Positions 59,757-61,254 of a stretch of 64,000 nucleotides of DNA are shown here, piece after piece. Under the pieces are notes generated by a model. That model did not search any database and was not told the origin of the DNA. It saw only the letters and a program-made list of their open reading frames with translations. Numbering within the stretch: position 1 is the first letter of the stretch; each line of letters starts with the position of its first letter. The stretch is from contig CACAWF010000001.1 in NCBI GenBank assembly GCA_902536085.1, forward strand, positions 97,415-161,414, in the 5' to 3' direction. A program made the translations under genes and the position numbers. This DNA comes from an uncultured Pelagibacteraceae bacterium (GTDB lineage Bacteria; Pseudomonadota; Alphaproteobacteria; Pelagibacterales; Pelagibacteraceae).

Positions 59757-59999
59757 TTGATGAATAAACTTAAACCAAAACCATATCAATTTTGGGCATG
59801 GTGTTCCACTATCACAATTTTAGCTGGTGCTGGAACAGCAGCTTTGGGTTATTATCCTTTATACTGTTATATTTTTTTAATTGGTAATAGCGGTTTAGCT
59901 ATAATTTCTTGGCTATGGAATGAAAAATCTTTAGTAGCACTAAATATTGGACTCGCGAGCATTTATCTTGTTGGTTTGATTAATCTTTATCTTAATTGA
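59757..59999 (+). CDS. Small hypothetical membrane protein
   Basis: 80 aa, two or three hydrophobic helices; compact spacing after upstream ORF. Confidence 0.55.
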   Translation: MMNKLKPKPYQFWAWCSTITILAGAGTAALGYYPLYCYIFLIGNSGLAIISWLWNEKSLVALNIGLASIYLVGLINLYLN

Positions 60000-60038: not shown

Positions 60039-60064
60039 AGGGGCGTTCTGTTGCCAGGTGCCCC
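60039..60064. repeat. Direct repeat copy 1: partial duplicate of tmRNA gene end (candidate att site)
   Basis: AGGGGCGTTCTGTTGCCAGGTGCCCC, 26/26 identical to 60961-60986; similarity continues 12 nt with 4 mismatches (GGACCTTGTAAC vs AAACCCCGTAAC). Confidence 0.9.
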
Positions 60065-60132
60065 GGACCTTGTAACATTATTCCTTATTATACGCCATTT
60101 GCAATTGTTAAGAACCTAAAACTTTGAGGGAA

Positions 60133-60151
60133 ATTACGAGTAGATTACGAG
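60133..60151. repeat. Paired iteron ATTACGAG-TAG-ATTACGAG inside left cassette end
   Basis: Two direct copies at 11-bp period, ~69 bp inside copy 1. Confidence 0.75.
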
Positions 60152-60178
60152 CGAAATCTTATGCTAGAATCTTGGAAC

Positions 60179-60877
60179 ATGAAAAAACTTTTAGCGATCG
60201 TGGTTCTAGGTTTGTTGTGGGGTGGAAACGCTTATACAGAAAACATAGTTTTAAACTGTAAAAATTTACCTGTTTGGCAAAGTTTAAAGTTTGAAATTAA
60301 CAAAGAAAATAAGACTGTAAATATCACTGAGCAATATACTCAAAAATCTAATAAACGATCGTTTTCCAAACCTATAAGCTATTTAGATAATAAAAAAATC
60401 CATATTCAATTCCCCAACGGCAGTTTTTGGCAGTTCTTTTATGGTTCTGACCACAAACTAATATTTCCTGATGGAAAAACAAATTATCTAAAATGTAAAA
60501 ATGAATTAAATACAAAACAATTGCAAACAGCAAAACAAGATGCGATTATGTTTACAATCAAAGATAAACGTGAACAGTGTGAAGCAATTGGATTTAAACC
60601 TAAAACAGAGAAATTTGCTGATTGTGTTCTAAGGTTAGTAGAACTTGATATCAAAAAACAGCAAGATAATAAAATAGCAGCTGCTCAGAATTCAGGAAAC
60701 ATGCAAATAGCTAATCAGTTATTACAAATGCGTAACGATAATAATGCACAATACTTAATTGATTTAGGACAGCAGTTATTGACGCCTCAGTCATTTAACT
60801 CAAACATCTATTTACCTCAAACGCAAAATTGCACAATTATGGGCTTTGATAGTTTTGCAAAGATGACTTGTAATTAG
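60179..60877 (+). CDS. Exported hypothetical protein, sole ORF of the repeat-flanked cassette
   Basis: Signal peptide MKKLLAIVVLGLLWGGNAYT; Cys-containing segment KREQCEAIGFKPKTEKFADCVLRLVELD. ORF opens at 60161; 60179 fits signal peptide. Confidence 0.75.
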   Translation: MKKLLAIVVLGLLWGGNAYTENIVLNCKNLPVWQSLKFEINKENKTVNITEQYTQKSNKRSFSKPISYLDNKKIHIQFPNGSFWQFFYGSDHKLIFPDGKTNYLKCKNELNTKQLQTAKQDAIMFTIKDKREQCEAIGFKPKTEKFADCVLRLVELDIKKQQDNKIAAAQNSGNMQIANQLLQMRNDNNAQYLIDLGQQLLTPQSFNSNIYLPQTQNCTIMGFDSFAKMTCN

Positions 60878-60883
60878 AAAAAA

Positions 60884-60902
60884 ATTACGAGCACATTACG
60901 AC
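60884..60902. repeat. Paired iteron ATTACGAG-CAC-ATTACGAC inside right cassette end
   Basis: Same motif, same orientation, same 11-bp period as 60133-60151; ~58 bp before repeat copy 2. Confidence 0.75.
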
Positions 60903-60960
60903 CTGTCAGGTTGCATCATTCAAATTAGTATCATTAACAAAGAAAAACTATAAAGTTGTA

Positions 60961-61205
60961 AGGGGCGTTCTGTTGCCAGGTGCCCCAAACCCCGTAACTT
61001 AATTAATTAAATTAATTAAGCTGCAAGTGCAAATTTTTGATTTGCATTTATAATTTAGCCCGTTACGTCGGAGCCATCTCGAACGAAAGAACAGCCTTTG
61101 GACACCCGTCGATCCTAATTCACCCCCGTAAAATTATGGTGGAGGTGGTGGGTACTGCCCCCACGTCCGTGATGTTTATTACGAAATTCGTTTATCGTCA
61201 TAGTT
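60961..61205 (-). ncRNA. ssrA: Circularly permuted two-piece tmRNA (coding piece ~60961-61127; acceptor piece 3' end at 61137, 5' end approximate)
   Basis: Minus strand: coding piece starts GGGGGTGAATTAGGATCGACGGGTG; tag ORF GCAAATCAAAAATTTGCACTTGCAGCTTAA; acceptor piece has T-arm GTGGG-GGCAGTA-CCCAC then CACCTCC-ACCA, pairing with GGGGGTG. Confidence 0.92.
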
Positions 61206-61254
61206 GGAAAACCAACGACTTATTATATTTTAAAATCAAATTTCTGAAAAGAAT

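Follow-up and report, generated by a model that had tools for sequence, protein, structure and literature searches.

The window, a stretch of 64 kb from an uncultured bacterium of the Pelagibacteraceae, contains the ssrA gene and beside it a small cassette with a single open reading frame. The cassette and its surroundings have the following features.

59757-59999, + strand: mem80, a membrane protein of 80 aa in the chromosomal flank; in a relative with an empty site it abuts the single core
60040-60064, no strand assigned: distal copy of the ssrA 3′ end (putative att core on the chromosome side), 25 bp identical to 60962-60986
60065-60132, no strand assigned: conserved type I left-end frame (TTGTAACATTATTCCTTATTATACGCCATTTGCAATTG...), which recurs in the cassettes of other genomes
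60133-60151, + strand: left word pair ATTACGAG-TAG-ATTACGAG (sequence ATTACGAGTAGATTACGAG), proposed P′ arm-type sites
60161-60877, + strand: cassette ORF of 238 aa (232 aa from the methionine at 60179)
60884-60902, + strand: right word pair ATTACGAG-CAC-ATTACGAC (sequence ATTACGAGCACATTACGAC), proposed P arm-type sites
60962-60986, no strand assigned: ssrA-side copy of the repeat (putative att core inside the intact ssrA 3′ end)
60959-61254, − strand: ssrA, a permuted alphaproteobacterial tmRNA with the tag ANQKFALAA (RF01849, 214.4 bits over the full length; ARAGORN)

The outer repeat GGGGCGTTCTGTTGCCAGGTGCCCC is found twice in the window, at 60040-60064 and at 60962-60986. The first of these copies is a detached ssrA end and gives a partial match to RF01849 with 27.8 bits, which is under the gathering score. 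An earlier note on this DNA had placed two iteron pairs at 60133-60151 and 60884-60902, about 58-69 bp inside outer repeats and on either side of a single ORF. Both pairs are present exactly there, the outer repeats turn out to be the two ssrA 3′-end copies with gaps of 68 bp on the left and 59 bp on the right, and one ORF (60161-60877) lies between. The symmetry which was also claimed has to be qualified. The pairs run in the same direction, that is, they are direct and not inverted repeats, and the arrangement is therefore symmetric for distance only.

The pattern ATTACGAG-N3-ATTACGA has two copies in the 64 kb, starting at 60133 and 60884. With up to two mismatches these pairs are still the only ones in the window (shuffled sequences gave a mean of 0.07 and a maximum of 1), and a scan of the 759-kb assembly that allowed up to one mismatch recovered no others. 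Counted from the start of the core (GCGTTC), the left pair begins 90 nt past it, an offset shared by many cassettes, and the right pair begins about 80 nt ahead of it, again as in cassettes elsewhere.

In a genome of the same genus (G019, locus L167) the gene order is fumC-mazG-mem80-core-ssrA-thyX with one core and without a cassette, whereas the order in the window is mem80, core, cassette, core, ssrA. From this comparison we conclude that the cassette of the window has been inserted at the end of ssrA. As in integrative elements at tRNA or tmRNA genes, direct repeats of the 3′ end are found at both boundaries and ssrA itself is intact.

The ORF product begins with a secretion-signal-like N-terminus (MKKLLAIVVLGLLWGGNAY) and has no significant family in Pfam, PHROGs or PADLOC. 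Related N-termini are found at the start of the proteins of many other cassettes; in many cassettes with a type I or type II frame a similar secretion-signal-like opening, MLxSWxMKKLLAIVVLGL..., is followed by unrelated proteins (60161-60240 in the window, and others). No recombinase is encoded in the element, the 238-aa ORF being without a recombinase match. The window cassette thus lacks an integrase and is non-autonomous.

Cassette arrays and their words

The core, with at most one mismatch, is present in 120 of 151 genomes of the same genus. At least two copies are found in 75 of the 151 (hand count), with a maximum of eight, mostly in tandem on one strand. Order-wide, 342 of 398 sampled genomes have the core, and more than one copy is found in members of several genera of the family. 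We delimited 114 cassettes in 41 regions, ranging from 120 bp to 7.9 kb; a later set of 130 cassettes also includes those with the short core and loci of the sister genus. Many of the compared genomes are incomplete assemblies. Judging from the sequences, such cassettes accumulate in head-to-tail order at ssrA in SAR11 genomes.

The cargo across the cassettes comprises type III restriction-modification genes, C5 and N6/N4 methylases, an MT-A70 enzyme, a trypsin-like protein and numerous ORFs with secretion-signal-like N-termini. Nearly identical cassettes are found in divergent hosts, which we take as a sign of transfer. One cassette of 793 bp is 99.6% identical between two genomes in which its neighbours differ and the ssrA-thyX flanks are 86% identical. 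A cassette of 272 bp is 98-99% identical across four genomes, in two of which ssrA was undetected nearby, and in one comparison its flanks are 79-89% identical. This 272-bp cassette (L104, L112; also L029, L131) is seen in ssrA arrays and at a site without a detected ssrA, where degenerate cores flank it; the occurrence away from ssrA is possibly a secondary-site insertion. A 394-bp cassette with 100% identity in locus L110 (G093:C28) was set aside, since its contig joins thyX abnormally to fumC. A truncated thyX match is fused there to fumC, and the contig is probably a chimeric assembly.

Exact ATTACGAG pairs number 12 in the 151 genomes of the genus. All 12 are located in ssrA-type arrays; for 11 the distance to a core is 80-90 nt, and the remaining one lies where a contig ends. 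Outside the genus of the window the exact pair was absent from an order-wide sample of 397 genomes. One-mismatch matches in six genomes without cores were taken as background. The earlier note had named abundance of the motif away from repeats as counter-evidence to its reading; we looked for this, and the exact pairs are confined to the genus of the window and associated with arrays.

The type I frame forms the left end of many cassettes elsewhere, with different words placed after it. While the frame is constant, the word at the iteron position varies (TACGAG, TACGACC, TACGTG, TCCGCC, TTCGGCA, TGCGTC). The words TGAGTCC, TGTGATC, TGTGCCC and others go with a second frame, type II. Words are paired or tripled with a period of 11-12 bp and stand at fixed distances inside both cassette ends. 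They were detected by simple exact-repeat scans in which cassettes are counted regardless of relatedness, and 49 of 121 left windows contain a word compared with 3.4% of shuffled windows. Where a cassette has words at both ends, the left word equals the right word in 19 of 27 cases. In 10,000 permutations this figure was never reached, either overall (mean 3.6) or within architecture class (mean 9.1, maximum 17), statistics which ignore kinship between the cassettes. The other eight cassettes have unmatched words and are composites or decayed, as in L027. Across the junction to the neighbouring cassette, words match in only one of six cases. By their sequence pattern, what appear to be matched arm-type sites stand on both sides of the core.

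The words could instead be regulatory sites, either operators or parts of promoters, which serve the cassette genes or the neighbouring gene. The left pair ends about 10 bp ahead of the earliest start codon that the ORF could use, and many type I and type II cassettes have an ORF which begins just past the left words, as this explanation would have it. However, an equal pair stands downstream of the ORF, where in the window it faces only the 3′ end of ssrA. A regulatory role also does not account for words that match within a cassette and not across the junction, promoter-like sites do not exceed the shuffled number, and elements with quite different genes, described below, share the layout. 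We consider regulatory sites improbable.

Elements with an integrase

In one genome (G048, contig AG-349-M05) the unit adjoining ssrA is 7.6 kb long and encodes a protein of 409 aa, without a match in Pfam or PHROGs, and a serine resolvase of 246 aa. Homologs of the 409-aa protein are rare and were found in one of 169 genomes of the genus and in eight of 397 genomes of the order-wide sample. Five of these eight have ssrA at a distance of no more than about 10 kb, and three of the five are broken copies. The residues R, K, R-H and Y are invariant in the family at the positions typical of tyrosine recombinases. The AlphaFold model has a mean pLDDT of 74 and a pTM of 0.47. Foldseek returned 36 matches at E ≤ 0.001, all of which are tyrosine recombinases (Cre, Tn1549 Int, XerH, S. 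aureus integrase); their low TM-scores are probably due to uncertain domain placement in the model. The N-terminus is predicted to consist of strands plus a helix, and arm-binding domains begin with strands plus a helix. Judged by its conserved residues and its predicted fold, the 409-aa family is a divergent tyrosine integrase.

There are five intact types of element with this putative integrase, four at ssrA and one at groEL, and each has its own word. The integrase gene lies inside the element in L150-L152, L154 and L156. L150 carries GGTACATAGT twice on the left and three times on the right, L154 has three copies of CTTCGTTGA on each side, and the same holds for CTTCGTAG in L151 and L152. 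In L156 the word AGTGCGAAGT is found twice on the left and three times on the right, with one of the right copies farther out. Counted from the core start, left words set in 56-60 nt past it, and most right words 60-84 nt ahead of it. In L150, L151/L152, L154 and L156 every exact copy of the word is on one strand, near the two ends and at most about 116 nt from the core, with a chance expectation of 0.01-0.11 copies per strand in these loci. At the 3′ end of groEL, the element L146 (7340-12910) has three copies of TTCCTCACT at one end and a pair of TTCCTCAC at the other. As L146 is built in the same way at groEL, the layout goes with the integrase family rather than with ssrA as the target. 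A duplicated terminator sequence accompanies L146, in which a member of the integrase family has switched to another target.

Restriction-modification cassettes which lack an integrase have the same build with the word ACTTCGTG. At the right ends of L026, L124, L125 and L149 this word is tripled; these units carry restriction-modification or other cargo and no integrase. By the sequence of their ends they are of the same class as the integrase-bearing elements, minus the integrase. The geometry of the ATTACGAG class differs somewhat from that of the integrase-bearing class. The former has 2 + 2 words at about +90 and −81 and a shared core of 25 bp, whereas the latter has two to three left words from about +57, three right words from about −84 and a shared core of about 13 bp.

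Since each intact integrase type has its own word at both ends, the words are best read as arm-type sites. The earlier note had proposed that the ATTACGAG pairs act as arm-type sites for a tyrosine integrase, and integrase elements of the same architecture support this. In the attP of lambda and in elements with integrases of the Tn916/Tn1549 type, arm words are repeated at about one helical turn on both sides of the core. The SAR11 words likewise flank a core, and the Tn1549 integrase is among the top fold matches. Unlike in these systems, the SAR11 words all have one orientation, and otherwise similar cassettes at one target differ in their word.

Genes for a gp45-like sliding clamp or for a clamp-loader-like ATPase are present in some of the integrase elements (L142 7376-8005, L143 8637-9377), which suggests a link to T4-like phages, perhaps that of a satellite. 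Genes of this kind in the relatives also suggest replication. Direct repeats spaced by about one helical turn are found in iteron origins as well, so that the words might be iterons bound by a Rep protein for replication or partition of the excised circle. Against this, the words keep fixed offsets from a recombination core and are shared out over both ends, an initiator is missing from the small cassettes, and it is an integrase which accompanies the layout across different words and target genes. An origin function is therefore very unlikely in our view.

The search for a cognate integrase

The earlier note had called for a search for integrases linked to the word pairs next to an ssrA-type core. 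The architecture was found, with a different word in each element; the exact word ATTACGAG was not. No integrase with ATTACGAG arms was found in 169 genomes of the genus, many of which are incomplete assemblies, or in IMG/VR. In IMG/VR the iteron scan gave 35 contigs, no more than expected by chance for 15 fixed bases and none near a core, the core scan gave 18 contigs, none with iterons, and the scan for the cassette end frames gave none. Wherever a tmRNA was detected, the matching core was the 3′ end of a phage-carried tmRNA. Most of the core-matching viral contigs (L075-L092) carry their own permuted tmRNA gene, with several tag peptides among them, and a phage-carried two-piece tmRNA has been described for Melnitz (PMC9004378). 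The sole match to the short core (L157) falls within a portal-like gene in a GC-rich phage, and we dismissed it as a chance hit. INPHARED, searched with the left end and with the integrase, returned nothing.

A search of the genus with an HMM of the integrase family gave no further ssrA integrase. PF00589 did not recover the ssrA integrase, as the family is too divergent. PF00589 matches outside the Xer size class are located away from ssrA, several of them near tRNA genes, and the genome of the window has a single match, a gene of 325 aa on another contig. In most genomes of the genus a single tyrosine recombinase was seen, which is of Xer size (about 309-325 aa).

With this one enzyme as the only tyrosine recombinase in most genomes, host Xer, or else ordinary homologous recombination between the ssrA-end repeats, could be thought to rearrange the cassettes, the words being functionless remnants. 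The arrays do provide 25-bp repeats, and composite cassettes with unmatched ends exist. Yet homologous recombination leaves the conserved words, their spacing and the left-right matching unexplained, integrase-bearing elements exist at ssrA, and the core repeats appear unlike a dif site. We give this explanation very little credence.

Proposed mobilisation in trans and related systems

We consider it very probable that the window contains a non-autonomous integrative cassette at the 3′ end of ssrA, that a tyrosine integrase uses the ATTACGAG pairs as arm-type sites and that this integrase acts in trans. At the sequence level, the repeats, the words with their spacing and matching, the empty site, the near-identical cassettes in divergent hosts and the integrase elements of like build all point to this reading. 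The two ssrA-end repeats would be attL- and attR-like cores. The N-terminal domain of the integrase would hold the arms, and its catalytic domain would exchange the strands in the core. Excision would give a circle of one cassette with the junction right end - GGGGCGTTCTGTTGCCAGGTGCCC - left end, in which a single core would be flanked by the two pairs, each about equally far away, like the P and P′ arms. As the window cassette has no integrase of its own, we propose that it is moved by a cognate integrase supplied in trans from a co-resident element, and each cassette's own word would mark which integrase can move it. We infer that an integrase reading ATTACGAG exists and that the window cassette is still mobile.

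Several known systems are comparable. In Dehalococcoides, islands (vcr-GI) are arranged in tandem downstream of ssrA and are bounded by ssrA or by a 20-bp repeat of its 3′ end; some islands lack an integration module, and for these mobilisation by neighbouring islands has been proposed (PMC3146451). The SAR11 arrays share the multiple tandem units at ssrA, the 3′-end repeats and the units without an integration module. The enzyme in Dehalococcoides is, however, the CcrB-like serine recombinase DsiB, whereas the SAR11 companion appears to be a divergent tyrosine integrase with variable arm words. A module of the DsiB type was not found in the SAR11 elements; the co-occurring serine resolvases have 225-246 aa compared with 540 aa for DsiB. 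Moreover, SAR11 cassettes shrink to a few hundred bases, unlike the Dehalococcoides islands.

Stacked elements which consist only of att sites are known as CIMEs (reviewed in PMC5704250). The window cassette corresponds to this description, with attL and attR present and the integrase absent. CIMEs are described as decayed ICEs or IMEs, whereas the SAR11 units are often single-gene, have conserved end modules and form arrays of up to eight cores. As to an origin from an ICE or IME, the cassette shares its build with the integrase elements, no conjugation gene was recognised and no parent of the ATTACGAG type was found. The arrays also resemble those of integrons, in which small cassettes with mostly one gene each lie head to tail at one chromosomal site. 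Unlike an integron, the array has no IntI next to it, the boundary consists of an ssrA-end core and separate arm words, and each cassette retains end modules of its own. Judged from these boundaries, attC sites appear to be absent from the cassette ends, and none were found at the hypervariable regions of SAR11 (Wilhelm et al. 2007; PMC2217521). Tycheposons, as they are characterised in PMC10872708, are cargo elements at tRNA genes with their own tyrosine recombinase; by that characterisation the window element, with ssrA as target and no recombinase, is not one of them.

In the open-access literature tandem ssrA islands and stacked att-only elements are already known. We found no description there of SAR11 ssrA arrays, of the integrase family or of exchangeable arm words.

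SAR11 bacteria are among the most abundant marine cells, and gene gain in their streamlined genomes is poorly explained. The present findings give a concrete site (ssrA), a build and an integrase family which is missed by current Pfam and PHROGs models. A more general reading is that ssrA of SAR11 is an integron-like platform for many integrases, which share one attB and differ in their arm words, and that tiny single-gene cassettes copy a word as an address label, by which they are selectively moved in trans. We see the case for this platform as evenly balanced. If it is true, ATTACGAG is one such label, the cognate integrase of which is still to be found. The word pairs predict which cassette and which enzyme are partners, and the natural set of integrases with altered arm specificity is useful for understanding how arm-binding domains read DNA. 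Given the cargo of restriction-modification genes and proteins with secretion signals, the arrays may serve as a reservoir with rapid turnover for defence and surface genes.
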